A DNA stretch of 64,000 nucleotides from Demequina sp. B12 (GTDB taxonomy: Bacteria > Actinomycetota > Actinomycetes > Actinomycetales > Demequinaceae): the NCBI RefSeq assembly GCF_028823635.1, contig NZ_JAPEHU010000003.1, positions 1 through 64,000 on the forward strand, read 5' to 3'. Numbering within the stretch: the first letter of the stretch is position 1; each line of letters begins with the position of its first letter. Position numbers and translations under genes: made by a program. This document shows, piece after piece, positions 36,532-54,174 of the stretch. The notes below the pieces were generated by a model, which saw nothing but the letters and a program-made list of their open reading frames with translations, was not told where the DNA came from and ran no database searches.

Positions 36532-38094
36532 CTAGCGGCTGCGGCGGCGTGCTCCACCGGACTTCGCGCTGAAGTCTGCGGCTGAACGCTGGCCGCCTCC
36601 GGAGCGACCCGCGTTGGAGTGTCCGCGGCCCCGGCCGTTCCCGCTGCGTCCGCTCCCCTGGCGTGCGGCTGACACGCCGGCACCCCGACGGGGTGCCTCT
36701 CCCCGGGTTCCGGCGTCGTTCTTGTGGCCGTTGGAAGACTTGCGAGCACCAGGCTGAGCAGTCCCACGCCCGCTGTCACGGTTGCGGTCACGGCCTGCGT
36801 TCCGGCGCTCGCCGTCGTGGCTCTGTTCGTTGGTGCGGCGTGCACCGCTGCGTCCACGACCGTTGCCGCGACGCTGCTGCGGACGCTCACTGGTAGCGAC
36901 AGGTGCCACGTGAGGCGCGACCTCTCCGACCAGCGTGACAACGGCATCGGACGTAGCCGTGACCTGTTGGGGCGTCACGTCAATCTTTGCGCGACGCAGC
37001 AACTGTGCGGTGTCGCGGCGCTGTTCGGGCAGAACCAACGTCACCACGTCGCCTTCGGAGCCGGCACGCGCGGTGCGGCCCGAGCGGTGCAGGTACGCCT
37101 TGTGTTCGGCGGGCGGGTCCACGTGCACCACCAGTTCCACACCGTCGACGTGCACACCACGTGCGGCGACGTCGGTCGCGACCAGCACCTTGACGTCACC
37201 CGAGGCGAATGCCGCAAGGTTGCGGTCACGCGCATTCTGCGACAGGTTGCCGTGCAGGTCGACTGCCGGGATACCGTCGCTGGTGAGCTGCTTGGCCATG
37301 CGCTTGGCGTGATGCTTGGTCCGGGTGAACAGCACGCGCCGCCCAGTACCGGACGCGAGAGCACGAAGAACGTCCTTCTTGGCGTCTGCACCGGCTAGGT
37401 GGAACACGTGGTGCGTCATCGCTTCAACGGGGCTTTCGGCGCTGTCAACCGAGTGGGTGGACGGGTCCGTCATGAAGCGCTTGACGATCGTGTCCACCCC
37501 GTTGTCGAGGGTGGCGGAGAAGAGCAGACGCTGTCCGTCCTTGGGGGTGGCGTTCATGATGCGGGTCACGCCGGGCAAGAAGCCCAGGTCCGCCATGTGG
37601 TCGGCCTCGTCCAGGACGGTGATCTGGACGTCGTCGAGGGAGACGATGCCCTGGCCCATGAGATCCTCGAGTCGGCCGGGGCACGCCACGACGATGTCGA
37701 CGCCGCGGCGCAGCGCCACTTCCTGACGGTGCTGGCTGACGCCACCAAAAATGGTGGTGGTGGTGAGGTTGAGGTCTGAGGCGAGCGGCGAGATGACGGC
37801 GTCGATCTGCGTCGCGAGTTCTCGCGTGGGCGCAAGGATGAGCGCCTTGGGTCGGCCTGGAGCGGTGCGGCCGGGCTTACCACCAGGGTTTTTGGCGCCG
37901 ATGCGTGCGACGACGGGCAGTGAGAACGCGAGCGTCTTGCCGGAACCGGTCTTGCCGCGGCCCAGAACGTCGCGTCCTGCGAGGGTCTGGGGCAGAGTGC
38001 TGGCCTGGATGGGGAACGGAGTGGTTTTGCCGTCACGCTCGAGGTTGCGTACGAGTGTTGCGGGCACGCCGAGATCGGCGAAAGTCTGAGTCAC
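36532..38094 (-). CDS. DEAD-box ATP-dependent RNA helicase
   Basis: 520-residue helicase that unwinds RNA duplexes, likely in ribosome assembly or mRNA decay at low temperature. Motifs are in order: Q-motif region FPIQ, Walker A GKTGSGKT, PTRELATQ, VLDEADHMADLGF (DEAD), SATL, and the C-terminal-domain HRSGRTARAG. The last 130 residues are an Arg/Gly/Asn-rich low-complexity tail typical for RNA binding. It starts with GTG behind a 290-nt leader with a long inverted repeat, a common place for autoregulation. Confidence 0.94.
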   Translation of the reverse strand: MTQTFADLGVPATLVRNLERDGKTTPFPIQASTLPQTLAGRDVLGRGKTGSGKTLAFSLPVVARIGAKNPGGKPGRTAPGRPKALILAPTRELATQIDAVISPLASDLNLTTTTIFGGVSQHRQEVALRRGVDIVVACPGRLEDLMGQGIVSLDDVQITVLDEADHMADLGFLPGVTRIMNATPKDGQRLLFSATLDNGVDTIVKRFMTDPSTHSVDSAESPVEAMTHHVFHLAGADAKKDVLRALASGTGRRVLFTRTKHHAKRMAKQLTSDGIPAVDLHGNLSQNARDRNLAAFASGDVKVLVATDVAARGVHVDGVELVVHVDPPAEHKAYLHRSGRTARAGSEGDVVTLVLPEQRRDTAQLLRRAKIDVTPQQVTATSDAVVTLVGEVAPHVAPVATSERPQQRRGNGRGRSGARRTNEQSHDGERRNAGRDRNRDSGRGTAQPGARKSSNGHKNDAGTRGEAPRRGAGVSAARQGSGRSGNGRGRGHSNAGRSGGGQRSAADFSAKSGGARRRSR

Positions 38095-38278
38095 GTGAGT
38101 GGGGTCTTTCCGTGGTTTGCGCCGGACACGCCGCCGGATGGCAGCGCACAGTTGTAGTCCGTGAATGTCACGGCACCGGCTGTGGTGGCGAAGCGCGAAG
38201 GTTGACGCGTTCGTTCGCCGAAGAGAGGATTTCTACGAGCCTTGCGCTACTGCCCTAGAGGGCTGGCCACGAGGGCCG

Positions 38279-38373
38279 CTGCGCTGGCGAGAAGGAGAAG
38301 CAATCTGCGACGCATGCAAACCCACTGGGGTCTTGCACGACCACAAGTTTAGCAGGCCCTCTCGCCAGCGCGG
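38279..38373 (-). other. Structured element between the FBP and helicase genes
   Basis: A 12-bp perfect inverted repeat (38281-38292 with 38360-38371), extendable by two pairs, encloses a second hairpin (38315-38337, nine pairs with one bulge and a CACT-type tetraloop). It begins about 14 nt after the FBP stop codon and lies in the leader of the helicase. It could be a terminator for FBP, a cold-responsive leader, or a small RNA. No gene was found in the rest of 38095-38385. Confidence 0.4.
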
Positions 38374-38385
38374 TGTGCCAGGCGG

Positions 38386-38871
38386 CTATAGCTCGGCGGC
38401 GAAGGCGCTCATCCGCAGGTGGAGGCCGTCGATCTGTTCTTGGCGGGCAGCGTCAACATCAAAACCCTCGTACCAAGCAGTCAAGGGCTTCCTGACGTTC
38501 CGCGAGCACTCGAAGTCTTCGCACAGGAGCGTGCCGACCGTGTCGCCGTTGCGCCCTGCCTTGCCGGACCGTTTGGCGGCGTACAGCACCACATCGCTGT
38601 TCAAAGTGATGTCCTGGCACCAGGCACATTGGGCTCGCTTGCCCGGCCGCGAGCCAGGATGGCGGAACATGATGCCGGTGACGGTGTCACCATCGAGCCC
38701 CGGAACTACTGCGTAGGCCCGGTTGTCGAACTTGGTATCTCGCCAACCTAAATAGTCGAGCCGCCCCCAGTCCAGGCTGTCGAAGTTGGGTGGGAGGGAG
38801 AGGTCCGAGACCTCTTTGCGGGACGCGTTGATGAAGGACGCGCGGAGTTCGTTCTCCGTGAGGGGTTGCAT
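38386..38871 (-). CDS. FBP-domain (FusB-like) zinc-finger protein
   Basis: 161-residue protein with the C-terminal treble-clef zinc site CAWC near residue 87 and CEDFEC near residue 123. The FBP domain family includes FusB/FusC, which bind EF-G and protect it from fusidic acid; most actinobacterial members are uncharacterised. ATG at 38871 follows GAAAG; a GTG three codons earlier is possible. Its mRNA begins with a predicted 16-residue leaderless leader peptide, so it may be controlled by ribosome behaviour. Confidence 0.85.
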   Translation of the reverse strand: MQPLTENELRASFINASRKEVSDLSLPPNFDSLDWGRLDYLGWRDTKFDNRAYAVVPGLDGDTVTGIMFRHPGSRPGKRAQCAWCQDITLNSDVVLYAAKRSGKAGRNGDTVGTLLCEDFECSRNVRKPLTAWYEGFDVDAARQEQIDGLHLRMSAFAAEL

Positions 38872-38948
38872 GTGAGTCACTTTCGGAAATGATCCAGCGC
38901 AGCATTCATTGTCGCCGCGCGGGTGGAGGTTTTGGGGTCGATGCTGAA

Positions 38949-38969
38949 GGCCGCGACGTGTGCGCGGCC
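38949..38969 (-). terminator. Hairpin behind the FBP leader peptide
   Basis: GGCCGCG/CGCGGCC form a perfect 7-bp stem with a seven-base loop, eight nucleotides after the stop of the leader ORF and about 80 nt before the FBP start. No T-tract follows, so it may be an attenuator or a simple ribosome-dependent structure. Confidence 0.4.
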
Positions 38970-38976
38970 CGGGGCG

Positions 38977-39027
38977 TTACGACGTGATAGCGGCGCAACG
39001 CGCGCCGACCACCTCCAGATGACTCAT
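38977..39027 (-). CDS. Predicted leader peptide of the FBP gene
   Basis: 16-codon ORF encoding MSHLEVVGARCAAITS. Its ATG lies exactly seven nucleotides behind a TATAGT -10 box (39035-39040), so it would be translated from the first base of a leaderless mRNA. A GC-rich hairpin follows the stop. No homologous peptide is recalled with certainty; the call rests on promoter spacing and on the layout of leader ORF, hairpin and gene. Confidence 0.5.
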   Translation of the reverse strand: MSHLEVVGARCAAITS

Positions 39028-39034
39028 GACAGCC

Positions 39035-39040
39035 ACTATA
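39035..39040 (-). promoter_or_regulatory. -10 box of the FBP transcript
   Basis: TATAGT on the minus strand, seven nucleotides before the leader-peptide ATG. The -35 position falls inside the pheT terminator and shows only CCCTGT. The same hexamer and spacing occur at argC. Confidence 0.6.
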
Positions 39041-39058
39041 CGGCGCGGCGCACACAGA

Positions 39059-39096
39059 CAGGGGCGGGCGACAGGTCGCCCCGTCGCCCGCCCCTG
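39059..39096 (-). terminator. Terminator of pheST
   Basis: A perfect 14-bp GC-rich stem (39059-39072 with 39083-39096, loop 10 nt) lies 22 nt after the pheT stop. There is no T-tract, as is common in high-GC actinobacteria. Confidence 0.75.
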
Positions 39097-39118
39097 GTGA
39101 GCACAGCGTGAACTCGGT

Positions 39119-41722
39119 CTACCGCAGCTGCGCCCCGAAGCCTTCAGCAGCCGCCGCAATGATCGCCTCGCGCACCGCGAGCACCTCGTCGCCAGACAGG
39201 GTGTGGTCGGCGGCACGCAGACGCACGTTGACGGCAACGGACTTGAGTCCTTCGCCAATCTGTTCGCCTTCGTAGACGTCAAAGACTGTGGCGTCTTCCA
39301 CGACGTCTCCCCCGGCGGCGCGTACAGCCGCAACGAGATCGCCAGCAGCGACATCGGCCGCCACCACGAACGCGAAGTCTTCCTTCGCGACCACCTGCTG
39401 CGACACGGGGACAGCACGCGAAATGGCACCCTCACCCTCGTCGATCAGCGGGTCGAGCACCACCTCGAAGGCCACGGAACGGGCCGGCAGGCCCAGCGTC
39501 TCGCAGACCTTGGGGTGAAGCTCACCCGCGTGGCCCACGAACTCGCCTCCATGCAACCAGTACGTGGCTCCGCGACCCGGGTGCCACGGCATCCGCGCAC
39601 CCTGAGTAACCGTGACCTCAACCCCAGTGGCACGCACCACGCGTTCCACAGCGGCCAAAGCATCGGCCCAACCCCAGGCACTGGCGTGGCCGTTCCAGCC
39701 CGCACGCACCCGGTTGCCGGCCATGATGCCGCCCACCCGTCGCTTCTGACCGGGGAGGGCCTCGTTCAAGCGAGTGATCTCTTCCGGAGTGATACGACCA
39801 TCCGAGAGGTCGGCCACATGCACGTCGCCGATGGAACTTGCCTGGTAGGCACGTCCCAACTCGTATACGGCGATGTCCTGTTCGCCGCGGCCCAAGTTGA
39901 CCTTGACGGCATCGACCAGCGACGCGAGCATCGTGGTGCGCATGAGCGGCTGCTCCGCAGACAGCGGGTTCGCCAACCGCACCACGTCGCGGCGGGGGTC
40001 AACGTCCGGAATCCCCAACTCATCGAGGCGGGACTCCGCGATGAACGGATATGTGAGCACCTCAGTCATGCCTGATTCGGCAAGGGTGCGCGCCACCGCA
40101 CGGCGCACTCGCTGCCCGTGGGTCAGGCCACGTCCCGGGGGCGCTACCGGAAGCACGGATGGCAGGTTGTCGTAGCCGCGCAGACGCGCCACTTCTTCCA
40201 CCAAGTTGACGGGAGTTTCGATGTCGGGACGCCACGTCGGCGGCGTGACCAGCAGCGACTCGTAGTCGCGGTCCACCACGCAGCCCACCTCTTCGAGCGC
40301 TGCCACAACCTCATCTGGGCTGTACTCGACGCCCACAATCGTGGACGGGAACGCGATATCCATCGCGATCGGCTGAGGCGCCACAACCGTGTCGAGATCC
40401 GTGTACACGTCCTCGATCTCGCCGCCGCCGAACTCCTGCATCAACCCCAGAGCACGCTCGACTGCAGCGACCTGCAACCGCGTGTCGACTCCACGCTCGA
40501 AACGACGCGATGCTTCCGAGCCCAGCTTGTGACGGCGTGCGGTGCGCGCAATCGTGATGGGGTCAAAGTGAGCGGCCTCCAACAGGATGTCGGTGGTCGA
40601 GTCAGAGACCTCAGTCTCCGCGCCACCCATCACACCGGCCAGGCCAATGGGACGAGCACCGTGGCCACCGACGGAATCTGTGATCAGCAGGTCTTCTGTC
40701 GACAACTCACGCGTCGCATCGTCCAAGGTGGTGAGCTTCTCACCGGCATTGGCGCGACGGACTACGATCGGCTCCGTCAGCGTGCCCAGATCGTAGGCGT
40801 GCAGCGGCTGACCCAGTTCGAGCATCACATAGTTGGTGACATCCACCGCCAGCGAGATGGGGCGCATGCCGGCCTGGTCCAGGCGTCGCTTCATCCACGC
40901 AGGGGCCTCAGCAGTGGCGTCGAAGCCCCGCAGTCGGCGCGCCACAAACCGGTCGCAGCCCACACGGTCACGCACAGGTGCCTGGTCCTCGATCGCCACA
41001 GCGAAGCCATCGCCCGCAGTTCCGGTGACCGCAACGTCAGCCGGGTCCCGGAACTCCTGGCCCGTGGAGTGGCTGTACTCACGTGCGACACCGCGCACGG
41101 AGAAGCTGTAGCCGCGGTCTGGGGTCACGTTGATTTCCAGGGTGGACTCGTCCAGACCCAACAGGGAAATGGCCGATGCTCCGGGCACCAGGTCAGCTTC
41201 GCTCACCAGATCGGGGAACGTGACCTGGGACTCGCCTGACGGCGACGCCAGCACGATGATGCCGTCGTGGTCCTCACCTAGTCCGAGTTCCTTCGACGAG
41301 CAGATCATGCCGTCAGACCAGTGCCCGTATGTTTTGCGTCCACCGATGTGGAAGTCACCTGGCAGTACTCCACCGGGAAGGATGCACACCACAAAGTCGC
41401 CTTCGTGGAAGTTGTGGGCACCGCACACGATGCCCTTGGAGGCCGGGTATTCCTCCTTGTTGTCAGGCTTGTGCCCTGGGCCAGCAGGATCGTTGTGCTC
41501 CCCTACGTCAACACGGCAGTAGTTCACCGTCTTGCCGTTGGAAGCAACTTCCTTGACGAGCGTCATCACGCGGCCAATAACGAGCGGGCCCGAAACGCCG
41601 CCGCCCTCGATGCCTTCTTCTTCCAGGCCAACCTTGGCGAGCGCGGCAGCGACATCGTCAGCGGTGTGACCCTCGACCAGGTCGACGGACTCTTGCAACC
41701 ACTTGAGTGGAATCTTGGGCAC
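39119..41722 (-). CDS. pheT: Phenylalanyl-tRNA synthetase beta subunit
   Basis: Beta chain of the (alpha-beta)2 enzyme that charges tRNA-Phe. The 867-residue protein starts with MPKIPLKWLQESVDL, has an EMAP/OB tRNA-binding domain (about residues 40-160), the B3/B4 editing domain (about 220-400), B5 and a C-terminal FDX-ACB anticodon-binding domain (last 95 residues). The GTG start at 41722 follows GGAGAT, two nucleotides after the pheS stop, so the subunits are made together. Confidence 0.96.
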   Translation of the reverse strand: MPKIPLKWLQESVDLVEGHTADDVAAALAKVGLEEEGIEGGGVSGPLVIGRVMTLVKEVASNGKTVNYCRVDVGEHNDPAGPGHKPDNKEEYPASKGIVCGAHNFHEGDFVVCILPGGVLPGDFHIGGRKTYGHWSDGMICSSKELGLGEDHDGIIVLASPSGESQVTFPDLVSEADLVPGASAISLLGLDESTLEINVTPDRGYSFSVRGVAREYSHSTGQEFRDPADVAVTGTAGDGFAVAIEDQAPVRDRVGCDRFVARRLRGFDATAEAPAWMKRRLDQAGMRPISLAVDVTNYVMLELGQPLHAYDLGTLTEPIVVRRANAGEKLTTLDDATRELSTEDLLITDSVGGHGARPIGLAGVMGGAETEVSDSTTDILLEAAHFDPITIARTARRHKLGSEASRRFERGVDTRLQVAAVERALGLMQEFGGGEIEDVYTDLDTVVAPQPIAMDIAFPSTIVGVEYSPDEVVAALEEVGCVVDRDYESLLVTPPTWRPDIETPVNLVEEVARLRGYDNLPSVLPVAPPGRGLTHGQRVRRAVARTLAESGMTEVLTYPFIAESRLDELGIPDVDPRRDVVRLANPLSAEQPLMRTTMLASLVDAVKVNLGRGEQDIAVYELGRAYQASSIGDVHVADLSDGRITPEEITRLNEALPGQKRRVGGIMAGNRVRAGWNGHASAWGWADALAAVERVVRATGVEVTVTQGARMPWHPGRGATYWLHGGEFVGHAGELHPKVCETLGLPARSVAFEVVLDPLIDEGEGAISRAVPVSQQVVAKEDFAFVVAADVAAGDLVAAVRAAGGDVVEDATVFDVYEGEQIGEGLKSVAVNVRLRAADHTLSGDEVLAVREAIIAAAAEGFGAQLR

Positions 41723-41724
41723 GT

Positions 41725-42852
<1,128 letters not shown>

Positions 42853-42896
42853 CTACCGGCGCAGGCAGGCGCGTACGCGGGCCCGGCCACAAGCGA

Positions 42897-42919
42897 AGCC
42901 CGGAGGGTCTCTCCGGGCT
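42897..42919 (-). terminator. Attenuator-like hairpin in the pheST leader
   Basis: AGCCCGGAG/CTCCGGGCT form a perfect 9-bp stem with a five-base loop; the leader-ORF stop codon overlaps the first bases of its 5' arm. The 5' arm can also pair with the downstream GGCCGGGCCC block (42880-42889), giving two exclusive structures. No T-tract follows. Confidence 0.5.
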
Positions 42920-43016
42920 ACATAAAGGGCGAAGGTGCAGGGCGCAACGGCGCTCCCGACTCCCCCACCATGCGAACACGCTGCGCATTGGCTGCGGGGC
43001 GGTCGCTGATGCTCAT
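42918..43016 (-). CDS. Predicted leader peptide of pheST
   Basis: 32-codon ORF beginning MSISDRPAANAQRVRMVG and ending in SPFM before TAG. Its only Phe codon is the rare TTT, two codons before the stop and directly in front of the hairpin at 42897-42919. The ATG lies six nucleotides behind a TATGCT -10 box (43023-43028), so the mRNA would be leaderless. The layout fits ribosome-mediated attenuation by charged tRNA-Phe, though with a single Phe codon. Confidence 0.5.
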   Translation of the reverse strand: MSISDRPAANAQRVRMVGESGAPLRPAPSPFM

Positions 43017-43022
43017 ACGCCC

Positions 43023-43028
43023 AGCATA
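43023..43028 (-). promoter_or_regulatory. -10 box of the pheST transcript
   Basis: TATGCT on the minus strand, six nucleotides before the leader ATG at 43016. It overlaps the gap after the membrane-protein gene that stops at 43042. The -35 region is weak. Confidence 0.5.
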
Positions 43029-43041
43029 CCGCTCGGGCACA

Positions 43042-43494
43042 TCACCCCAGGAGGCCACCCAGTACCGCAACGATGACTCCTCCGGCGACCGTATTGACCA
43101 GCGGCAGCGCGATCCGCAGCGGCTTGGGCATGGCGACGTTCTTCACGACCAGTACCGAGACAAAGAACAACACGAGGCCCAAGAACAATCCGACCAAGGT
43201 CAGACTCAGCGTCAGAAGAAGCGGCGCGAACATCACCACTTTCTCAAGGACCGATGCGTGGGCACCAAAGCGGTAGACCTCCGTGCCGTTCCACCACAGG
43301 GTCTGGAAGCCCGGAAGCAGGCCCCGCGCACGGAGTTCGGTCTCGCCGCCCTTCGCAGGAATGGGCCATGCTCCCTTGCGGCGAGACACAGGCTCACCGT
43401 TGAGCAGCACCTTGTAGAAGATCCCTTGTGCTCCTTGAACCTGGGTGGTGCCGCGAGCGCCTGGAAGACTGAGGTCCGCGAGTTCGTTTGTCAT
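43042..43494 (-). CDS. Membrane protein, unknown function
   Basis: 150-residue protein. The N-terminal half is soluble and beta-rich, with KVLLNGEPVSRRKGAWPIP and a Trp pair (LWWNG); two strong membrane helices follow (about residues 88-116 and 128-150). No family recognised. ATG at 43494 follows AGTAGGT. It lies between the diguanylate cyclase genes and pheST on the same strand. Confidence 0.6.
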   Translation of the reverse strand: MTNELADLSLPGARGTTQVQGAQGIFYKVLLNGEPVSRRKGAWPIPAKGGETELRARGLLPGFQTLWWNGTEVYRFGAHASVLEKVVMFAPLLLTLSLTLVGLFLGLVLFFVSVLVVKNVAMPKPLRIALPLVNTVAGGVIVAVLGGLLG

Positions 43495-43527
43495 TGCTAC
43501 CTACTTTCTGCTGAGAAGGTACCAACG

Positions 43528-45156
43528 TCATGTTTCGTCTGAGTGACGGTCCTGGTGCAGGTCCGATGCTGCGCTACCGTCGCCGTACACACGACCCTTG
43601 GTGGTGCGTTTCCCCTCGACCAAGCGAGCATCGGCCAGCGTCAACAAATCTTCTAACTCGCCCCGTTCGCCCGGCTCGATCACCGCAAATCCCGCGGTCA
43701 CCCCCACCGAGGACGCTGCCGGTGATACCGATCGCGCGGCGGACTCCACGGCATCCCGGAGACGTTCAACCAGTCCCCATGCGTCGTCGCGGTGGCGGAT
43801 ACTGTGCGCCATCACGAACTCGTCGCCTCCGAACCGTGAAGCAACGTCACGGCCACGCGTCGACGCACGCATCGCAGTTGCGGCGGCGACGAGCGCTTTG
43901 TCGCCTTCCTCGTGTCCTGCGGTGTCGTTCAGTGCTTTGAAGTTGTCCAGGTCGAGCGCTGTGATCACGACAGCGTCGCCATGCTCGGAGGCCCGGTCCA
44001 TCAGGCGCGACGCGCGCGCCCGGAACTCCGAACGTTTCACCAGACCTGTCAGATCATCGCGCACCGCGTTTTCGCGCAGCCGCTTGAGCGGCCGGCGTAC
44101 TCGCCACACCAGGACCGCCGCGAGGATCGTTGCCAGCAGAGAGTACGCGGCAATCCACGCCAACTGATTGCGGGTGTCCCCCAGTCCTGAGGACAACGCG
44201 GCGTCGTCGGATGCCATATGGATGTACCAATCCACGTTGTCGTCTGCGGGAAAAGTCTGGTCCAAGATCAGTTGGTCGCCGTCCACCGTGAAGCGGGTCT
44301 GGTCCCGCCCTGGCGGCGGTGGGTCCACATCAATCCCCAGGTCAGCCGCATGGGGAGTCTGACCAGACTCGACCACCCACTCCATCATCGCGGCGGTGTA
44401 CTCGGAAGGAACCGCGATCAGTTGGGAGTCCTCTGACAGTACGAAGGCCTCCGCTCCCGCGCCTACGGGCAGGTCGTCAAGCACATCGCCCAAGGTGTCC
44501 AGACTGAGGTCTGCGCCGATCACCGCGATGGGATCAGAACTCGGTGTTTCGCGTGCCGCGATCGCAACAGAAACTAAGGGATCACGCCCAATGAAATCCA
44601 CGTAGGGGTCAGTCCACTCGACCGTGCGACTTGCAATCCCAGCCTCATACCAGGGCCGCGTACGAGGGTCGTAATCCGTTTCGATCACTTCCGGGTCAGT
44701 CAACGGCGACAGCAACGCGTCGAACCGCTGAGACGTGACTTCCCCTGGCTCAGAGCTGTAGCGAGACAGATACCCGCCCCCGTCCCGTTGGATCAGAGCG
44801 ACGCGACCATCGGGCCAGCCCACATACATGGCGCGCACGTCCGGGAGCGCAAGCATTCGCTGGTACATCGCTCCCACCAGCTCGACATCATCAGGGGTTT
44901 CACTGCCTCGTGTCATTTGCAGCGCTGTCGTGACAACTGCGCTCTCAGCCAGGTCTGCATAGCGCGCGACCCGTTCAAGGGTGAGGTCCCCTACATACGA
45001 GTAGGTGTCTTGCGCCGCGCGTTCCAGTTGGCGGTCAGCAGCAACCGCAAAGAACACCGTGGCAGCGCCTTGGACGACCGCAATCGATGCGATCAGCACA
45101 AGCGCAAGCAGGTACCCACGTGACTTTGTCAGCCGCCACCTGCGCTTGATGCTCAT
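43528..45156 (-). CDS. dCACHE-GGDEF diguanylate cyclase
   Basis: 542-residue membrane signalling protein that makes cyclic di-GMP. A first membrane helix (residues 14-37), an extracellular dCACHE sensor with the family motif YDPRTRPWY near residue 165, a second helix near residue 338 and a C-terminal GGDEF domain are present. The active site is FGGDEF, and RGRD five residues before it is the product-inhibition I-site. It is a paralogue in tandem with the upstream gene. ATG at 45156 follows TAGGGT/AGGGTG. The ligand is unknown. Confidence 0.92.
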   Translation of the reverse strand: MSIKRRWRLTKSRGYLLALVLIASIAVVQGAATVFFAVAADRQLERAAQDTYSYVGDLTLERVARYADLAESAVVTTALQMTRGSETPDDVELVGAMYQRMLALPDVRAMYVGWPDGRVALIQRDGGGYLSRYSSEPGEVTSQRFDALLSPLTDPEVIETDYDPRTRPWYEAGIASRTVEWTDPYVDFIGRDPLVSVAIAARETPSSDPIAVIGADLSLDTLGDVLDDLPVGAGAEAFVLSEDSQLIAVPSEYTAAMMEWVVESGQTPHAADLGIDVDPPPPGRDQTRFTVDGDQLILDQTFPADDNVDWYIHMASDDAALSSGLGDTRNQLAWIAAYSLLATILAAVLVWRVRRPLKRLRENAVRDDLTGLVKRSEFRARASRLMDRASEHGDAVVITALDLDNFKALNDTAGHEEGDKALVAAATAMRASTRGRDVASRFGGDEFVMAHSIRHRDDAWGLVERLRDAVESAARSVSPAASSVGVTAGFAVIEPGERGELEDLLTLADARLVEGKRTTKGRVYGDGSAASDLHQDRHSDET

Positions 45157-45211
45157 ACTTCACCCTACGCACATCACGCCTGACACCAGGCCAGATGGCG
45201 TGTGGAATCAC

Positions 45212-46822
45212 TCACGACACAGCAGGCGCCACAGGACCGTGAACACACCCTTTGCACTGGGCCTTCCCTGCAACCAGGATCTCATCCGCCGCGAGCAGCA
45301 AGTCCTCAACCGAGTCAGTACCTGCAGTATCGACTGACAAGCCGATGGTCACGCCCACCATGCTCGAACCCGGCACGTCCCTGTGCATGCGCTCCACCAA
45401 ACGTTCGCGAAGACGCTGGGCGCTTGCCACGGCCTGCTCGGGCGAATCCACAGCGAGCAGGAACGCAAACTCGTCTCCGCCGAGTCGGGCTACCACGTCC
45501 GTGGCACGCGTCCCTTCCTGGAGCGCCTTCCCCACCGCGACAAGTGCAGCGTCACCAGAGTCGTGCCCGCATTCATCATTCAGCAACTTGAAGTTGTCGA
45601 GGTCGAGGACTCCCCCCGCGACCACTGCGCCGCGCGTGTGAGCCAATGCCAGCATCGGCTTGGCGAGTTCGTCGAGCTTGCGACGGTTCGGCAGACCTGT
45701 CAGTGGATCCGTCGACGCAGCCTTCTGAAGGCGCACGAGCGGCCCACGCATGAACCAGAGCAAGAGGCCTGCAACAGAACCCGCGACCACCGTGCCGATC
45801 GCAAGCCACACCAGCGTCTTTTGGACACTGTCAAGGCCGTCCGATACCGCTTTGTGTGACGCCTCAATGTGGATCTGCCATGGCAAGCCTGTGGATTCAT
45901 CGACTCCAACGTCGAGTACGACGCCCGCGGGGCTGATGGTGGCGCGTGTCTCCCCCGACTCAAGCGCGGTGTCCGCGATCGTGATGCCTAGGTCAGACGT
46001 GCATGCCACGGCAGAGTTATCAGCAATCCATTGGTCGAGGTCATACGACGAGTCCGATTGGGTGGCGACGATCGCGCCCCCGTTCGCAACAACGTAGGCC
46101 TCCGCACCTTCGCCATACGGAACCTCATCGAGCGCCTCGGACAACTGGGAAGTGTCGACCTCGACTGAGACCACCGCGAGGATGTTGCGCAGGTCATCCC
46201 GTGCAGCCTGCGACGCCATCACCACCGTTGACTCGAGATCTGTGCTGATCTCCGGCTCCTGCCACACCACCGGCGTGTGATACGAGGCGATGCGGTACCA
46301 CTCTTCGTCCAGGACGTCGTAACTCGAGACAAAACGCTTCGAGGAAATCAGACTCCAGAACTGGCTGTACGTGGCGTGGTACGCGACCGTTCCCTCGTCC
46401 CCCCAATGGTGTGTCACCGAGTACTTTGTCGAGCCAGGAATCCGCGAGACCTTGTAGTACGACCCATCGCGCCACGCAATTGTGATCGACTGTAGTTCCG
46501 GCGTCTGGGACAACTGGCTGTACAGAGTGCGGCCCACTTGGGTGAACACGTCCGGGGTGCCGTGGTCGGCCGCCTCGATCTGATCGACGGTGGATTCAAG
46601 AGTGTGCTGCCCAGAGTGAGCAAAGTGACGCACCTTTTCCGCGGTCAACTCACCTACGTACTCCAGGGTCTGCAACTGCGCACGCTCGGTGTACTTGCTG
46701 AGGACTACAGCGCCTGCGGCAACGGACGTGACCAGGATCCCCAGGATCACCAAGACCACTACGAGGGCAACACGAAAGCCCCGCCCAGAAGCGGGGAACA
46801 TTTCGACCCATCGGTGTGCCAC
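45212..46822 (-). CDS. Membrane GGDEF diguanylate cyclase, tandem paralogue
   Basis: 536-residue protein with the same plan as its neighbour: one helix near residues 17-39, an extracellular CACHE-like sensor with EEWYRIASYHTPVVW, a second helix near residue 335, and a GGDEF domain with LGGDEF and the I-site RATD five residues before it. The start is uncertain (GTG at 46822 or ATG at 46801). A TGTGA-N6-TCACA site lies 46 nt upstream, suggesting cAMP-receptor control of c-di-GMP synthesis. Confidence 0.9.
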   Translation of the reverse strand: MAHRWVEMFPASGRGFRVALVVVLVILGILVTSVAAGAVVLSKYTERAQLQTLEYVGELTAEKVRHFAHSGQHTLESTVDQIEAADHGTPDVFTQVGRTLYSQLSQTPELQSITIAWRDGSYYKVSRIPGSTKYSVTHHWGDEGTVAYHATYSQFWSLISSKRFVSSYDVLDEEWYRIASYHTPVVWQEPEISTDLESTVVMASQAARDDLRNILAVVSVEVDTSQLSEALDEVPYGEGAEAYVVANGGAIVATQSDSSYDLDQWIADNSAVACTSDLGITIADTALESGETRATISPAGVVLDVGVDESTGLPWQIHIEASHKAVSDGLDSVQKTLVWLAIGTVVAGSVAGLLLWFMRGPLVRLQKAASTDPLTGLPNRRKLDELAKPMLALAHTRGAVVAGGVLDLDNFKLLNDECGHDSGDAALVAVGKALQEGTRATDVVARLGGDEFAFLLAVDSPEQAVASAQRLRERLVERMHRDVPGSSMVGVTIGLSVDTAGTDSVEDLLLAADEILVAGKAQCKGCVHGPVAPAVS

Positions 46823-46867
46823 ATTCCACGTTAGGCAGAGAAACCTACCAGGCGGTCACAGTTGGGG

Positions 46868-46883
46868 TGTGAGCGTTATCACA
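46868..46883. promoter_or_regulatory. CRP/GlxR-like binding site
   Basis: TGTGAGCGTTATCACA matches TGTGA-N6-TCACA perfectly, the consensus of CRP and of actinobacterial GlxR. It lies between trmH and the GGDEF gene and upstream of the latter. A weaker copy (two mismatches) is at 45201-45216 in front of the second GGDEF gene. Confidence 0.65.
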
Positions 46884-46925
46884 ATGCGCGGTTCGTCACA
46901 CGCCCAGCGCCACCGCAGTGGGACT

Positions 46926-47777
46926 TTAGTCCCTCTCGGAGTGGTGCTGCGCCTGGGCCGAGGCGTACAGGCAGACACTGGCGGCAGTCGCGAGATTCAA
47001 GCTCTCAGCACGTCCATAGATGGGGATCCGCACCACCGAGTCCACGAGCGACAACTCATCTTCGCTAAAGCCCCAGGCCTCATTGCCGAAGACCCACGCT
47101 GTCGGAGCAGACATCGCCGAAGCGTCAGCAGCGCCGTCTCCCAACGTCGCCTCACCGGAACCGTCAGCCGCCCACACCTGCAGGCCAGCCTGAGACAGTG
47201 CACCCAGAGCATCCTCGAAAGGCAAGGAACGGACCACTGGCAGGTGGAACAGGCTTCCTGCGGTAGCTCGCACCACCTTGGGGTTTGAGATGTCAACGCA
47301 TTGGCCAGCGAGCACCACGGCATCGGCACCCGCAGCATCAGCGGCACGGATGACCGTGCCCGCATTGCCGGGGTCTCTCACGTTGCTCAACACCGCAACA
47401 AGGCGCGGCTTGGCAGCGATCACATCGTCGAGCGAAACGCCCGAGTCGTCCATCACCGCCACGATGCCCTGAGCATCAGAACTCATGGCGTCCAGCACCT
47501 CAGGGGTGCCCACGTGAACGTAGCGATCTGCGGCAAGTGCGGCTTCGGCTACGTCACGATAGCGGTCCAGGGCAGCCTCAGTGACGTAGAGGTCCCGCAC
47601 ACGTTCCACGGCGTAGTGCACCGCTTCACGCACTGACTGCGGCCCTTCCACCAACAATGCGCCTGCCCGGGAACGCGCAGAACGCCCCGCAAGAGCGGCG
47701 ACCTTCTTCACGCGCTCCGCCTTGACGTTAGTCAAGGAGAGCTGGAGGTCGTACGTTCCTGCGGGGCGTCCTGTCAT
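46926..47777 (-). CDS. TrmH/SpoU-family RNA methyltransferase
   Basis: 283-residue SPOUT methyltransferase using S-adenosylmethionine on rRNA or tRNA ribose. The three family motifs are present: NVRDPGNAGTVIRAADAAG near residue 150, FGNEAWGFS near residue 235 and VRIPIYGRAESLNLATAASV near residue 250, which form the knot and cofactor site. The N-terminal substrate-binding domain is present too. It follows rplT by 11 nt, so it is part of the infC-rpmI-rplT operon; such coupling is common. Confidence 0.93.
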   Translation of the reverse strand: MTGRPAGTYDLQLSLTNVKAERVKKVAALAGRSARSRAGALLVEGPQSVREAVHYAVERVRDLYVTEAALDRYRDVAEAALAADRYVHVGTPEVLDAMSSDAQGIVAVMDDSGVSLDDVIAAKPRLVAVLSNVRDPGNAGTVIRAADAAGADAVVLAGQCVDISNPKVVRATAGSLFHLPVVRSLPFEDALGALSQAGLQVWAADGSGEATLGDGAADASAMSAPTAWVFGNEAWGFSEDELSLVDSVVRIPIYGRAESLNLATAASVCLYASAQAQHHSERD

Positions 47778-47788
47778 ACCTGTATCGC

Positions 47789-48169
47789 TTACGCGGCGGG
47801 CGCGTTCACGTCCGCGGGGAGCGCCTTCTTGGCGGTCTCCACGAGGGCGGCGAATGCAGCCTCGTCGTTCACAGCGAGTTCAGCCAGCATGCGACGGTCA
47901 ACCTCAATCTCAGCAGCCTTCAGGCCCTGGATAAAGCGGTTGTAGGTCATGCCGTTCGCGCGAGCTGCGGCGTTGATGCGCTGGATCCACAGCTTGCGGA
48001 AGTCACCCTTGCGCTTACGGCGGTCGCCGTAGGCGTACACCATAGAGTGGGTGACCTGCTCCTTAGCCTTGCGGTAAAGGCGCGAGCGCTGACCGCGGTA
48101 ACCAGCGGCCCGCTCGAGGGTGCTGCGGCGCTTCTTCTGGGCGTTTACTGCCCGCTTGACGCGTGCCAT
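47789..48169 (-). CDS. rplT: Ribosomal protein bL20
   Basis: 126-residue large-subunit protein needed early in 50S assembly; it can also repress its own operon in some bacteria. The basic N-terminus [15 protein letters not shown] and the block [14 protein letters not shown] are typical. ATG follows AAGGAG. Order infC-rpmI-rplT is the standard IF3 operon. Confidence 0.98.
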
Positions 48170-48195
48170 GTCTTACTCCTTGCGTTAAACGGGCG

Positions 48196-48390
48196 TTACT
48201 CGCCCAGCAGCTTCTTGATCTTCTTCGAGTCGGCGTCCGACAGGATCGCCGCACCGGCGACGCGGCGCTTACGCGAGGAGGTCTTCTCCTCGAACTTGTG
48301 CACGTTCATGGCGTGAGCGTGCTTCACCTTGCCGGTGCCAGTGAGCTTGAAGCGCTTCTTGGCGCCCGAGTGGGTCTTGTTCTTCGGCAT
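48196..48390 (-). CDS. rpmI: Ribosomal protein bL35
   Basis: 64-residue large-subunit protein. The family start MPKNKTHSGAKKRFKLTGTG and a basic C-terminus are clear. ATG follows GGAAGGG. It lies between infC and rplT. Confidence 0.98.
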   Translation of the reverse strand: MPKNKTHSGAKKRFKLTGTGKVKHAHAMNVHKFEEKTSSRKRRVAGAAILSDADSKKIKKLLGE

Positions 48391-48455
48391 GACTGCCCTT
48401 CCTTGACATCAGGTCCTCCGCCGCTGGTGTGGGCGTCGGACGCGTCTTAAACCGA

Positions 48456-49079
48456 CTACTCGCCGGACGACTTCTTGGCGGCCTTAGTGGCCGCACGCTC
48501 TTCACGCTCGGCGACGGCCGCGGCCTTCGCCGCTTCACGCGCCTGGCGCTGCTCTTCCTTGGCTTCCGCCTTCTTCTTCAGCGGGCCCAAGACGAGCGAC
48601 ATGTTGCGCCCCTCCTGCGAGGGTGCATTTTCGACGACTCCGTAGTCCTGAAGTTCATCCGCCAGCTTCATCAGCAAGCGGCGGCCCATCTCAGGACGCG
48701 ACTGCTCACGACCGCGGAACATGATCGTGACCTTGACCTTGTCGCCGCCCTTGAGGAAGCGGATGACGTGGCCCTTCTTGGTCTCATAGTCATGCTCGTC
48801 GATCTTGAGACGGAAGCGCATCTCCTTGATTTCCGTGTTGGCCTGGTTGCGCCGGGCCTCACGTGCCTTCACGGCCGCCTCGTACTTGAACTTTCCGTAG
48901 TCCATGAGCTTGACGACCGGCGGGCGCGAGTTCGGAGCGACCTCGACCAGGTCGAGTTCGGCTTCCTGCGCCAGACGGAGCGCATCCTCGATACGGACAA
49001 TGCCGACCTGTTCGCCCTGGGGGCCGACAAGGCGGACCTCAGGAACGCGGATGCGATCGTTGATGCGGGGCTCGTTGAT
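48456..49079 (-). CDS. infC: Translation initiation factor IF-3, AUC start
   Basis: Binds the 30S subunit, blocks premature 50S joining and proofreads the start codon. The 207-residue protein has the N-domain [17 protein letters not shown], the linker helix and the C-domain with [17 protein letters not shown], plus a Lys/Ala/Glu-rich tail. No ATG/GTG/TTG has a ribosome site at the family N-terminus; AUC at 49079 follows GAAGGAG at five nucleotides and fits exactly. A non-AUG start on infC is the known autoregulation device (AUU in E. coli). A GTG at 49110 without ribosome site is the alternative. Confidence 0.9.
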
Positions 49080-49126
49080 GGTGGCTCCTTCAAAGATGAA
49101 CGTTTGCACGGTAGCCGTCGGGCAAG

Positions 49127-49158
49127 AAAAAAGACCCTCACCCGAACACGAGCGAAGG
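49127..49158 (-). terminator. Attenuator terminator in the infC leader
   Basis: On the minus strand CCTTCGCTC and GGGTGAGGG pair over nine positions (three wobbles) with a six-base loop, directly followed by TCTTTTTTC. It is the cleanest T-tract terminator in the window and lies 48 nt before the infC start, so it must attenuate the operon rather than end a gene. Confidence 0.65.
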
Positions 49159-49309
49159 CCACCGTCAAGTCTCAGCGAACCCGTACGATTAAGCACGTTC
49201 ACACCGTGACCTGGGACCCCGGCCCAACAACTGGACCTAGGGTGGGAGGTGGACTCCACTTGCGCGCCGGGATACTTGTTCCCGACCGGTCGACTCACAA
49301 GGATAACAG

Positions 49310-49675
49310 ATGACGCAGCCCACCTCCTCCCCCGACTCTCTCGCCGACGCATCGGCCGCAGCCGCACGCGATATTGCGGAAGTAGGCGCCGCGGAACTTA
49401 TTACCACCGTAAGCGTTCACCTACTGAGCGCAGCCGCCTTGCGGTGTGGATTGGCTGAAGAGGGTGAGGAGCACAAGGACTTGGATGAAGCACGCGCGCT
49501 GATCAACGCGCTCGCTGGCCTCGTGACCGCGGCCGCTCCCGATCTAGGCAACACCCATGCACGCTCCCTGCGAGACGGTCTGCGGAGCGTACAGTTGGCG
49601 TTCCGGGAAGCTTCCGTATTCCCGGACGCACCGGGTGAGGGCCCGGGCGAGAAGTACACGGGGGCAGTGAGCTAG
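49310..49675 (+). CDS. DUF1844 protein
   Basis: 121-residue helical cytosolic protein with the DUF1844-like core [24 protein letters not shown] and [16 protein letters not shown]. Members sit next to infC in many actinobacteria, but their function is unknown. It is divergent from infC, starts behind AAGGAT, and its stop codon is followed directly by the ATG of the next gene. Confidence 0.8.
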
Positions 49676-50626
49676 ATGAGTCAGACTCCTCACCAGGACG
49701 ATGCGGAAGACGCCACGGGCGTCGACGTCACCGACCCCGCTGAGGAGACAGCAGCCGAAGAGCGCGATGCGCGAGTTGAGGGCGCGGGCTCAAGCGAGGA
49801 CAGCGCTGGCGCAGATGATTCGGCTGATCCCCCCACTCCCACAGACCACGTGAGCGGATCCTCGGATCCCAACGAAACATCACAGCCATCCGTCTTTACT
49901 GGCGTGGATACCGATGACGCCGACGAAGCAGACGGGCTCGACGCGGATGACACCCGTGCGGATGATGCCGACGCGGATGACACTGCGGAGATCGCCCCCA
50001 TCACTGCGCCCACTATCCAAGGCGTACGTGCAACGGGCGCCATCCCCATCGTGGGCGACGCGATGCCTGTCACGGGTGCGGTTCCCGTCATCAGACCTAT
50101 CTATCCTCCCAAGAGTCGCACCCCGTGGATTGTCACCACGATCGTGTTGTTCCTTCTCCTCGCGGGTTCCGTGTATTTGGGCTGGCGGCTGTGGACCGTC
50201 AACGGCGAGTGGCAGGACTACTCAGATCAACTCACTCAAGCCAACTACGACCTGGGCGAGCAGATCGCTGCGGAGCAGCTCATCGTCACGCAGAAGGAGA
50301 ACGAGGTTGCGCTGCTGTCAGAGCAACTGTCGGCTTCAAACTCCAGGCTTCTCGATGTGTCCGCGGAGAAGGCCGATGCGCTCGACAACGACGCTTGGAA
50401 CCAACAGATCGTCGAGCAACAAGGGAACCAACTCAGTCTGGGCCAGGCTGCCACCGCGTCGCTGAACAGTTGCATCGACGGGCTTGAGAACCTCGTGGAG
50501 TACGTCTCTGCCCCCGAGGACGAGTACGACGCGGACCAAGTGCAAGACTATGCCGACGGTGTGGTGGAGCTCTGCGCCGCTGCGGACACCGCCACTCAGA
50601 ACTTCCAGAACGCGTTCACCCCATGA
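49676..50626 (+). CDS. Membrane-anchored coiled-coil protein
   Basis: 316-residue protein with a long acidic, disordered cytoplasmic N-terminus (residues 1-135, Asp/Glu/Ala/Thr repeats), one membrane helix (about 145-165, WIVTTIVLFLLLAGSVYLGW) and an extracytoplasmic coiled coil (about 175-245). Two cysteines near the end may form a disulfide. No family known. It is sandwiched and coupled between DUF1844 and a protease gene, so it may work with the protease. Confidence 0.6.
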   Translation: MSQTPHQDDAEDATGVDVTDPAEETAAEERDARVEGAGSSEDSAGADDSADPPTPTDHVSGSSDPNETSQPSVFTGVDTDDADEADGLDADDTRADDADADDTAEIAPITAPTIQGVRATGAIPIVGDAMPVTGAVPVIRPIYPPKSRTPWIVTTIVLFLLLAGSVYLGWRLWTVNGEWQDYSDQLTQANYDLGEQIAAEQLIVTQKENEVALLSEQLSASNSRLLDVSAEKADALDNDAWNQQIVEQQGNQLSLGQAATASLNSCIDGLENLVEYVSAPEDEYDADQVQDYADGVVELCAAADTATQNFQNAFTP

Positions 50627-51348
50627 ATCGTCGTCTGATTGCCGCCAGTCTCGCCGCCGTTCTCGCGCTATCCGGCTGTGCTGTGCTCCCGGCCGCGCCA
50701 GAGGCGTTGCCCACGGATTGGGTTCCCGAAGCAACGGTGGACCCCGACACCAATACTGCGGCGTTGTCCCCGGACGGATTCAACGCCGCACAGCGGATGA
50801 CGGTGCGGGTGCGCAACATCGAATGTCGGGGGGTGTCTACCGGCACGGGGTTTGCACTTGACGCATTCACGCTGGTCACGAACAGGCATGTCGTGGATCA
50901 CGCAAAGAACCTGCAGGTGTCGACCCACGACGGGCGACTCATCGACGTCGAAGCAGCCTCCGTCACGACGGTGGCAGACATCGCCATCATCACGACGGCA
51001 GCGTCCCTGGGCGGCGCATTTGCCGTCCGCGCGGAGGAAGACCCCGTCGAAGGTGACGCCATCACGGTGGTGGGATACCCCAATGGGGGTCGCCTCACCA
51101 CCACGGCCGGGGTGATCCTGGGCCCAGCGGATGATCCCATTGGGGGCGCCGTGGGCACGGTCCTCGCTACTACTGCAGTGGTGGAGCCCGGTTCCAGTGG
51201 GTCACCAGTATTGAATGCCGACGGTGAAGTCGTGGGGGTCGTCTATGCCAAGAACGACGCGGACCAGAGCTTTATTGTGCCGGTCTCCACGCTGAACAGT
51301 TTGCTGGCACAGCCGAGCCTTCTGGTTCCTGAATCAACCGGCTGCTAG
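50623..51348 (+). CDS. Trypsin-like serine protease lipoprotein
   Basis: 241-residue exported protease. The signal peptide ends in the lipobox LSGC near residue 19. The chymotrypsin/HtrA-type fold has the catalytic triad His in TNRHVVD (residue 89), Asp in VADIAII and Ser in PGSSGSPV near residue 195; there is no PDZ domain. Its ATG overlaps the stop of the coiled-coil gene by four nucleotides. Target unknown. Confidence 0.85.
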   Translation: MNRRLIAASLAAVLALSGCAVLPAAPEALPTDWVPEATVDPDTNTAALSPDGFNAAQRMTVRVRNIECRGVSTGTGFALDAFTLVTNRHVVDHAKNLQVSTHDGRLIDVEAASVTTVADIAIITTAASLGGAFAVRAEEDPVEGDAITVVGYPNGGRLTTTAGVILGPADDPIGGAVGTVLATTAVVEPGSSGSPVLNADGEVVGVVYAKNDADQSFIVPVSTLNSLLAQPSLLVPESTGC

Positions 51349-51367
51349 CGGACAACCGCGCTGTCTT

Positions 51368-52093
51368 CTAAGCCTGCGTCAACTTCACTTCGAGGCTGTC
51401 TACTCGTTGCGCAATCACATCTGACTGCGCGAGTTCTCGTTGGACTCTCTCCAGTACCGCGTCGACCTCGGGCCGTGTGAGTCCCGGGACCAGGGCCAAC
51501 ACCACCGCGATCTCCGCACCATCACCAGGACGAACGCTCACGCGGACGAGCGCCTCATCGACGCTGACAGCCTCAGTCACTGCGGTCGCAATGTCCTCAT
51601 GCACGGTGCCATCATCCACCGCAGGTCGCCATGGCTCGCCCTGTCCCAGAGCCCAGACGGCGGGACGCGGAACGAGGATCGTCTCCATCCCTGGGTTGAG
51701 GACCAGTGAGGACCACCCTTCCGCCACGGCGGCAAGCGCAGCCCGTGGCCCCTCGGCAGGGATAGGACGGGCATGAGCGTTCCATTGCTTCATCGCCTCG
51801 ACGTCGGTGAACACCGGGAGGGCCGCTCTGCCATCAGGCATTTGTACCGCCACGACACCCGTCGATGCCACAGCATCTTGTTCGAGTCCGTGACTGCCCA
51901 CAAATCGCTGCTCGCCCTTGGCAACAACGGGAATGAGAACCCGTGCGTACGCAAGGGCATCGACCACTTCTGTGAGGTGGGCATGCCCGTGCGAGTGCCG
52001 GATCAGCGACTGCGCCAAATGCGCGTCCGCGGTGCCGTCATCGTCCGCAAAGATCGACTCCGGAATCTCTTTCGAGTGCTCGCCCTCGCTCAT
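51368..52093 (-). CDS. SseB-family protein
   Basis: 241-residue protein with the SseB N-terminal domain: RVLIPVV, then the block GRAALPVFTDVEAMKQWN typical of these proteins, and an SseB C-terminal-like region after residue 150. Function unknown in this phylum. ATG at 52093 lies seven nucleotides behind TAGCAT, so the transcript is probably leaderless from this codon rather than from the ATG two codons upstream. It lies downstream of priA, a common actinobacterial pairing. Confidence 0.85.
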   Translation of the reverse strand: MSEGEHSKEIPESIFADDDGTADAHLAQSLIRHSHGHAHLTEVVDALAYARVLIPVVAKGEQRFVGSHGLEQDAVASTGVVAVQMPDGRAALPVFTDVEAMKQWNAHARPIPAEGPRAALAAVAEGWSSLVLNPGMETILVPRPAVWALGQGEPWRPAVDDGTVHEDIATAVTEAVSVDEALVRVSVRPGDGAEIAVVLALVPGLTRPEVDAVLERVQRELAQSDVIAQRVDSLEVKLTQA

Positions 52094-52100
52094 AGACATG

Positions 52101-52106
52101 ATGCTA
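52101..52106 (-). promoter_or_regulatory. -10 box of the SseB-family gene
   Basis: TAGCAT on the minus strand, exactly seven nucleotides before the ATG at 52093. The spacing matches the other leaderless starts in the window. Confidence 0.5.
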
Positions 52107-52168
52107 CGCGAGGTCGCCGACGCACGGCCGCGAAGCCGGGAAAGAGCCCTGAACTGACGCCGTCGAGG

Positions 52169-52906
52169 CTACGGGCGACCGGCGATGTCGAGGGCCTGCG
52201 GCAGGGTGAAGTTGCCGTTGTACAGCGCTTTACCCACGATGGCACCTTCAACGCCCACATCGATGAGTTCCCGTAGTGCGGCGATGTCGTCCAGGCTGGA
52301 GATTCCACCTGAGGCGACGACCGGGCGATCAGTGGCTTCGCATACTTGGCGAAGCAACTCGACGTTCGGTCCGGTGAGCATGCCGTCCTTCTTGACATCC
52401 GTGACCACGTAGCGCGCGCAGCCTTCAGAGTCGAGCCGTGCGAGAACATCCCACAGGTCTCCGCCGTCGCGAGTCCAACCACGGCCGGACAACGTGGTGC
52501 CGCGCACGTCAAGGCCGACGGCAACCCGGTCACCGTGCTTCGCGATCGCTGCCGCAGTCCACTCGGGGTTTTCGAGCGCAGCGGTGCCGATGTTCACCCG
52601 AGCGCAGCCGGTGGCGAGTGCACGTTCGAGGGACTCGTCGTCACGGATGCCACCGCTCATCTCGACCTTGATGTCCACGCTCTTGACGACGCGTTCAAGC
52701 AGGGCTGCGTTCTCGCCGCGTCCAAAAGCCGCGTCAAGGTCAACGAGGTGGATCCACTCAGCGCCGCCGTTGACCCAGTCCTGGGCAGCCGCGAGCGGGT
52801 CGCCATAGCTGGTCTCAGAACCGGCTTCTCCCTGCGTAAGGCGGACGGCCTGGCCGTCAGCAACGTCAACAGCAGGGAGCAGTTCAAGGCGGTTGGTCGC
52901 GGTCAT
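52169..52906 (-). CDS. priA: Bifunctional HisA/TrpF isomerase PriA
   Basis: 245-residue TIM barrel that isomerises ProFAR in histidine synthesis and, in actinobacteria, also PRA in tryptophan synthesis. Seen are [15 protein letters not shown] at the N-terminus with the first catalytic Asp, the phosphate loop [13 protein letters not shown], the second Asp region [14 protein letters not shown] and the second phosphate loop [10 protein letters not shown]. It is separated from hisH by the opposite-strand metal-resistance pair. TrpF activity is inferred from the phylum. Confidence 0.93.
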
Positions 52907-54170: not shown

Positions 54171-54174
54171 GGCT

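Follow-up and report, generated by a model that had tools for sequence, protein, structure and literature searches.

In enterobacteria, pheST, an essential operon, is preceded by an attenuator with the pheM leader peptide. The element described here, found before pheST in the actinomycete genus Demequina, which belongs to the Demequinaceae of the Micrococcales, shares with that attenuator a leader peptide with Phe codon(s) and an RNA hairpin, but differs in having one fixed Phe codon, a leaderless-type start, no U-run terminator and, within Demequina, no conserved rival pairing. In the E. coli pyrBI attenuator, polymerase pausing on low UTP is the signal and the hairpin carries a U-run; the feature in common would be a ribosome that itself prevents the hairpin, whereas the low-UTP signal and the U-run set pyrBI apart. 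Mycobacterial polycysteine leaderless ORFs are reportedly the subject of a 2020 paper by Canestrari and, going by its title, share with the present element a leaderless short ORF with regulatory codons and differ in the Cys codons and in the genes concerned. The families of Rfam include the enterobacterial Phe leader and the T-boxes, and no match at the gathering score was obtained in the window (the whole stretch of 64,000 nucleotides that was analysed) and ten related loci.

In a re-annotation of Streptomyces lividans, leaderless leader peptides have been placed before synthetase genes, namely trpL2 before trpS and thrL before thrS; of these, trpL2 contains just one Trp codon and is not followed by a U-rich sequence, and pheS does not occur in the main text of that paper (PMC8079986). 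The leaderless leader peptide before a synthetase gene is shared with the element before pheST, as are the single codon and the missing U-rich sequence in the case of trpL2; the amino acids are different, and the portions of the paper considered here contain neither a fixed codon-to-helix spacing nor a kinase-tail version (PMC8079986). A 2005 survey of actinobacterial attenuators and the LEU element saw no conserved RNA structure ahead of the phenylalanine operons of Actinobacteria (PMC1262725). A prior description of this pheST leader element was not found in the literature searched. A leaderless sensor that relies on one codon and keeps codon and helix at a fixed distance would be a minimal system for the interplay of waiting ribosome and helix.

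The pheST leader of Demequina

In the window, the leader, pheS and pheT follow one another on the minus strand (Table 1), and the leader coordinates given in the original prediction proved correct when that strand was re-read. Six nucleotides separate TATGCT from the leader ATG (43014–43016), and the hairpin has a folding energy of -18.1 kcal/mol. The TAGACT of P2 is followed by GGAAAG, which resembles a ribosome-binding site, and then by the ATG of pheS. The 867-aa ORF of the presumed pheT lies 2 nt behind pheS, and the PheS protein is 93–94% identical to those of Demequina flava and D. globuliformis, the nearest named relatives.

Table 1. Positions of the pheST leader, its parts and its neighbours in the window
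Feature	Position	Strand	Basis
pheT, phenylalanyl-tRNA synthetase beta chain	39119-41722	-	assigned by position only
pheS, phenylalanyl-tRNA synthetase alpha chain	41725-42813	-	Pfam PF01409 (E 5.9e-95) and PF02912
Second promoter P2 between hairpin and pheS, putative -10 TAGACT	42850-42855	-	recurs in genus
Hairpin, 9-bp stem and 5-nt loop, AGCCCGGAG-AGACC-CTCCGGGCT	42897-42919	-	covariation and covariance model R1, genus-wide
Stop codon TAG, A and G within the stem foot	42918-42920	-	TAG in 38/38 leaders
Fixed Phe codon TTT, second-last sense codon	42924-42926	-	TTT in 38/38 leaders
Leaderless-type leader ORF, 32 codons, MSISDRPAANAQRVRMVGESGAPLRPAPSPFM-stop	42918-43016	-	S-P-F(TTT)-M-TAG end
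Promoter P1, putative -10 hexamer TATGCT	43023-43028	-	TANNNT before in-frame ATG/GTG in Demequina leaders
Upstream neighbour, 150-aa protein	43042-43494	-	no Pfam match
Upstream neighbour, GGDEF protein	43528-45156	-	Cache/PDC-type sensor part

What the original prediction described, a leaderless-type ORF before pheST with a hairpin and a single regulatory Phe codon, holds well beyond the window: when 44 Demequina genomes were searched with PheS, 43 of them giving a match, and the upstream regions were read, the arrangement was found in 38 of the 44. Thirty-five leaders were found at the first pass, and those of genomes G013, G036 and G037, which lie near contig ends, were recovered by a covariance model. 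The leader is absent from six Demequina genomes (G003, G017, G018, G022, G033 and G039) and, as judged by eye, from two sister-genus genomes with readable upstream DNA, the sequence of a third (G406) being truncated. Conservation of the terminal Phe codon and the hairpin in relatives had been proposed as a check, and both are conserved, with a hairpin that covaries and with TTT as the second-last codon and TAG as the stop in every leader, even though the first-pass patterns for the ORF end also admitted TTC and other stops. The length of the ORF varies from 7 to 36 codons. The distance from a putative -10-like hexamer to the start codon is 6–7 nt in 35 and 9 nt in two of the 38 leaders, and no -10 was recognisable in the leader of locus L160. 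When a start codon 5–7 nt after TANNNT within 150 nt was sought in all three frames of 34 leaders, 32 had an in-frame start, none had an out-of-frame candidate and the remaining two were those with a spacing of 9 nt. The same design was found, under the TANNNT rule, at none of 30 trpS and tyrS loci from 15 Demequina genomes, a weak negative in that some of these loci are cut or misframed.

The codon had been called a rare TTT two codons before the stop, and indeed, fixed as it is in the leaders, TTT makes up only 27 of the 594 Phe codons in 30 Demequina pheS genes; it is also uncommon in the window, where 14 called ORFs contain 224 Phe codons and 32 of these are TTT. Further Phe codons in the 37 assigned leaders number four, all TTC, three of which stand directly before the fixed TTT, and L160, which is outside this set, has a second TTT beside the fixed one. 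Demequina leaders are thus characterised by one fixed Phe codon and not by several or tandem control codons. The ratio pN/pS is 1.02 in 11 leaders of 32 codons and 1.06 in 11 leaders of 18 codons. These values of about 1 rule out a functional leader peptide and indicate that it is the codon and the RNA, not the peptide, that are conserved.

The hairpin was aligned after identical rows had been removed, leaving 29 distinct sequences from 35 leaders. In this alignment 96.5% of the cells pair, and two-sided changes are seen at four of the ten pairs, amounting to 23 cells. The covariation score is 0.239 as against 0.066 in shuffled alignments, and none of 500 shuffles reaches either the score or the cell counts, while four reach the number of two-sided pairs and 84 the number of pair types; related sequences, however, may exceed shuffles in such tests even without structure. 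All 29 distinct hairpins share the motif GAGNNCC at the loop (42905–42911 in the window) without variation, even though the five bases inside it do not pair, and the loop is of 5 nt throughout the genus except for one species with 6. With covariance model R1 of the hairpin, 38 of the 44 genomes each give a single strong match (E 2.2e-9 or better; next best E 0.005), by which reuse of the hairpin elsewhere in the genome was rejected.

An intrinsic terminator with a U-run was rejected on the T counts behind the stem: no U-run follows the hairpin, the next 8 nt containing 0–2 T in 37 of 38 leaders and four scattered T in the species of the window. Across window positions 38001–58000, U-tailed terminator-like sites number 13 as compared with 11.6 in shuffles, which is no excess. 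Elsewhere in the window, positions 22046–22091 form a perfect 20-bp hairpin with a 6-nt loop and no U-run that resembles a two-way terminator, and terminators in these sequences may, to judge from this hairpin, do without U-runs. Given long hairpins of this kind and no excess of U-tailed sites, the missing U-run alone does not disprove termination.

The 5' arm of the hairpin had also been predicted to pair alternatively with positions 42880–42889. While such a pairing can be drawn (best duplex between 5' arm and downstream region, -13.9 kcal/mol, z -1.4), it is not conserved, and downstream pairing of the 5' arm was rejected as a feature of the genus (mean z 0.19, 0/38 leaders below -2). In Demequina, a downstream partner of the 3' arm (mean z 0.35, 0/38 below -2) and a pairing of the 5' arm with the ORF (mean z -0.23, 2/37 below -2) were likewise not found as conserved features. 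A pairing of the 3' arm with the ORF was rejected as a common feature, with a mean z of -1.03 and 8/37 leaders below -2, seven of these eight belonging to the subclade with 18-codon leaders. The ORF start of L015 had been set too far upstream (234 nt), which touches only the two ORF-side z values of that locus. Hence, of the comparison with enterobacterial pheST attenuation made in the original prediction, the leader ORF, the Phe codon and the hairpin stand, whereas a run of Phe codons, a U-run and a conserved terminator/antiterminator pair are missing in Demequina.

A P2-like TAGACT or TAGAAT lies 35–47 nt before pheS (94 nt in one case) in 40 of 43 Demequina upstream regions, with one contig cut. 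Among the six species without the leader, four have TAGACT or TAGAAT and two have TAGGAT, and TAGACT is also found in the two sister-genus genomes that lack the leader.

Relatives of the element in other Actinomycetes

Outside Demequina, a first scan of 60 loci (L052–L111) for a Phe codon, one further codon and a stop together with a hairpin gave two matches only, because the stop lies further on outside the genus, and model R1 gave five matches in 396 genomes of the order, none of them before pheS when the reading frame that follows was inspected by eye. A looser scan revealed relatives. It covered 178 non-Demequina pheS upstream regions (59 named loci, 79 from the order and 40 from the class), which include seven pairs drawn twice or near-identical and thus correspond to 171 distinct regions, one of the pairs (L236 and L056) being positive. 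The search pattern, CGATT(T/C) followed by a GC-rich arm, misses other forms, that of Demequina among them, and since it demanded CGA, the constancy of CGA is not a result. Of 48 pattern matches, four (L263, L274, L095 and L111) were judged spurious, leaving a related element in 44 of the 178 regions (43 of the 171 distinct ones), with 134 of the 178 negative by this pattern. The positives span 14 of 44 family labels as well as Knoellia, Phycicoccus, Nostocoides, Sinosporangium, Herbidospora and the unclassified isolate OK074.

The Phe codon is TTT in 40 and TTC in four of the 44 relatives. A GCC(C/T) arm begins at +9 from the first T of this codon in 43 of them and at +10 in one, where the pattern admitted +7 to +12; the GCC of Demequina starts at +9 or +10. 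In the relatives, this arm pairs with a segment further downstream, the end of which lies at +45 to +147, forming a long-range helix, and the ORF stop (+22 to +40) precedes the end of the 3' arm in all 44. A local hairpin outside Demequina shares its 5' arm with the long-range helix. Own partners have a pairing score of 25.2 against 19.05 (sd 0.56) for permuted ones, the former value being reached by none of 20000 permutations of 46 distinct sequences, the four spurious ones included; since the partners had been picked for the strength of their pairing, the pairing percentage is too high, but the permutation test is unaffected. Case by case, the own partner outscores every swapped arm in 11 of the 46, and in comparison with dinucleotide shuffles z is below -2 in 17 of the 27 first-found cases (mean -2.65). 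When the arms of 43 sequences, the spurious L263 among them, were aligned, eight of eleven pairs changed on both sides, in 77 cells; none of 500 shuffles reached the cell count or the covariation score, while 33 reached the number of two-sided pairs and 23 the number of pair types. Three of the eleven helix pairs have nine or more unpaired cells in the class set, and among the 44 the helix is weak in some, such as L286 (6 bp), L307 (7 bp) and L248 (8 bp).

Two types can be told apart among the relatives. A mini-ORF holds the Phe codon, always TTT, in 21 of the 44, with an in-frame ATG or GTG 6–7 nt after a -10-like hexamer and with no out-of-frame candidate in any of the 21; the rule for the hexamer, which asked for T, C or G followed by A, had been loosened after the sequences were read, and the TANNNT rule gives 9 of 21. 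In the other 23, the element lies within the last 10–13 codons of a histidine kinase frame (...EAHGG...GAEFRFTxPxGxP...stop), the identity of the kinase being based on Pfam matches to HisKA and HATPase_c for two frames and on the motif for the others, with FRFTLP presumably a histidine kinase motif. The Phe codon of these tails is TTT in 19 and TTC in four of 23, as compared with two TTT among 92 Phe codons in the rest of the same frames. Because FRF may serve the kinase protein, only the codon choice and the helix argue for an RNA function in kinase tails.

Family f37, which we take to be Streptomyces-like and whose genomes are of 5–12 Mb, provides a further view of the kinase-tail form. The 18-mer TTCCGATTTANNNTGCCC, a search pattern of which TTT was part, occurs exactly once in 60 of 101 f37 genomes and its reversed control in none, and in each of 30 loci examined pheS lies 189–416 nt downstream. 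All 217 other Phe codons in the examined kinase frames are TTC, and CGA is uncommon in them, with 88 instances against 1521 other Arg codons. The exact 18-mer is missing from 41 of the 101 genomes, and some genera lack it in all sampled genomes.

Three Knoellia and one Nostocoides have a displaced kinase about 1.5–1.7 kb from pheS (with HisKA and HATPase_c in L056), and the displaced kinase tails contain no CGATTT, which is instead carried by a mini-ORF beside pheS. A fifth displaced kinase (L097) reads TTC-CGG-TTG, with no element found beside its pheS. In six loci without the element, a kinase adjoins pheS, and its tail reads TTC-CGG or TTC-CGC and then a Val codon in L058, L081, L086 and L105, CGG-TTC-GTC in L096 and CAG-TTC-ACC in L091. 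The comparison of displaced and element-free kinases indicates that codon and helix go with pheS and not with the kinase.

One mini-ORF, RRFTVPSG, resembles the Sinosporangium kinase tail FRFTVPTG, a likeness from which we infer that the mini-ORF may descend from a kinase tail. We tentatively hypothesize, with slightly less than even confidence, that a Phe-tRNA sensor is present across the class Actinomycetes with CGA-TTT in a kinase tail, that loss or displacement of the kinase left a leaderless mini-ORF (from FRFTVPTG over RRFTVPSG to RLFL-stop) and that in Demequina the helix was reduced to a compact hairpin next to the stop. If this were so, the leader peptide would be the fossil tail of a protein-coding gene, the case would illustrate the birth of leader peptides from a gene lying upstream, and a ribosome waiting at one rare codon would be the switch; Phe-responsive read-through from kinase genes would then be predicted in Streptomyces-like bacteria.

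A possible gauge of charged tRNA-Phe and its alternatives

We consider it on balance probable that the element is a cis-acting, ribosome-mediated gauge of charged tRNA-Phe before pheST, its mechanism and direction being inferred from sequence. By translating a leaderless-type ORF or, in other Actinomycetes, the end of an upstream histidine kinase gene, a ribosome would arrive at one fixed TTT, about 9 nt after whose first T a stable covarying helix starts. When charged tRNA-Phe is scarce, the ribosome would wait at TTT with its leading edge over the foot of the helix, the helix would be kept open and transcripts from P1 would continue into pheST. When Phe-tRNA is plentiful, the ribosome would run on, terminate and leave, upon which the helix could close and lower expression, acting as a U-run-less terminator or by another route such as Rho or decay; that the closed helix lowers rather than raises expression is suggested by the need of the cell. 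P2 would supply basal pheST expression and could bypass leader control.

A ribosome with TTT in its A site covers about 12–13 nt. In this position, the Demequina sequences retain a mean fold of -8.4/-6.4 of -22.6 kcal/mol, whereas a ribosome one codon before TTT leaves -17.4/-13.7 kcal/mol and one two codons before leaves nearly all. Only from TTT onwards, therefore, would a waiting ribosome deprive the stem of more than half its energy, which favours direct occlusion, and a lack of conserved alternative partners in Demequina is what would be expected if the ribosome itself were the switch. The Demequina hairpin is opened, too, by a ribosome standing at either of the final two codon positions, where -1.0 to -3.3 kcal/mol remain, so that the direction of control would depend on dwell times, that at the stop codon among them. 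In leaders of 7–8 codons, the polymerase may pass before a ribosome arrives. The element is missing from six of 44 Demequina genomes and, by the search pattern used, from 134 of the 178 other regions, which counts against the sensor reading.

The same parts could also work in the opposite direction, as a classical attenuator with the helix as antiterminator: stalling at TTT would leave the helix free and the operon on, while a ribosome at the stop codon would mask the 5' arm and give way to a downstream terminator or Rho. This logic has the sign expected for a synthetase operon, fits a Demequina hairpin without a U-run and draws on the almost complete masking of the Demequina 5' arm by a stop-codon ribosome. 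We nevertheless regard it as unlikely, since the 3' arm has no conserved downstream partner in Demequina and no terminator was seen there, the ribosome waiting at TTT is already close enough to cost the helix more than half its folding energy, which would defeat the logic, and outside Demequina the stop lies past the 5' arm.

Less probable still is an ordinary terminator or insulator that senses nothing, placed behind a small gene and before P2 as the true pheST promoter. The retention of a P2-like TAGACT where the leader is absent speaks for it, as do the U-run-less hairpin at window positions 22046–22091 and the near-chance number of U-tailed sites, but it would leave unexplained why a rare TTT and its distance from the helix are fixed, why the starts are in frame and why the peptide is neutral, and it does not account for a codon and helix that stay beside pheS and not in the displaced kinase. 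It is very improbable that the ORF is incidental and that a protein or DNA-binding regulator recognises the GCCCG...CGGGC repeats or the GAGNNCC loop. Although the invariance of that loop despite its unpaired inner bases would suit a regulator, and outside Demequina the 3' arm stands just before the -10 of P2 in several loci (L237, L239, L267 and L292 among them), the arms covary across many sequences rather than preserving half-sites, and both the TTT codon and the frame are conserved.

Repeats and hairpins around the leader

The window and 20 loci, mostly from Demequina, add up to 198 kb and contain 37 perfect hairpins with stems of 9 bp or more and loops of 3–8 nt, and 13 of these, counted from the list, are the pheST leader hairpin. 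The G011 pheS (contig 1 near 2486635) is matched in four pieces with one internal TGA, and the breaks are probably sequencing errors, the genome being listed as 50% complete. The sequence GCATCGTCC recurs, as judged by eye, between genes before pheS in a Demequina subclade (L016, L024, L026 and L114), and in some loci of this subclade it flanks the leader on both sides. In L009, L015 and L124, a palindrome with ATGGATCCAT lies between the hairpin and P2, with similar flanks in several Demequina species, and perhaps belongs to a small repeat family.
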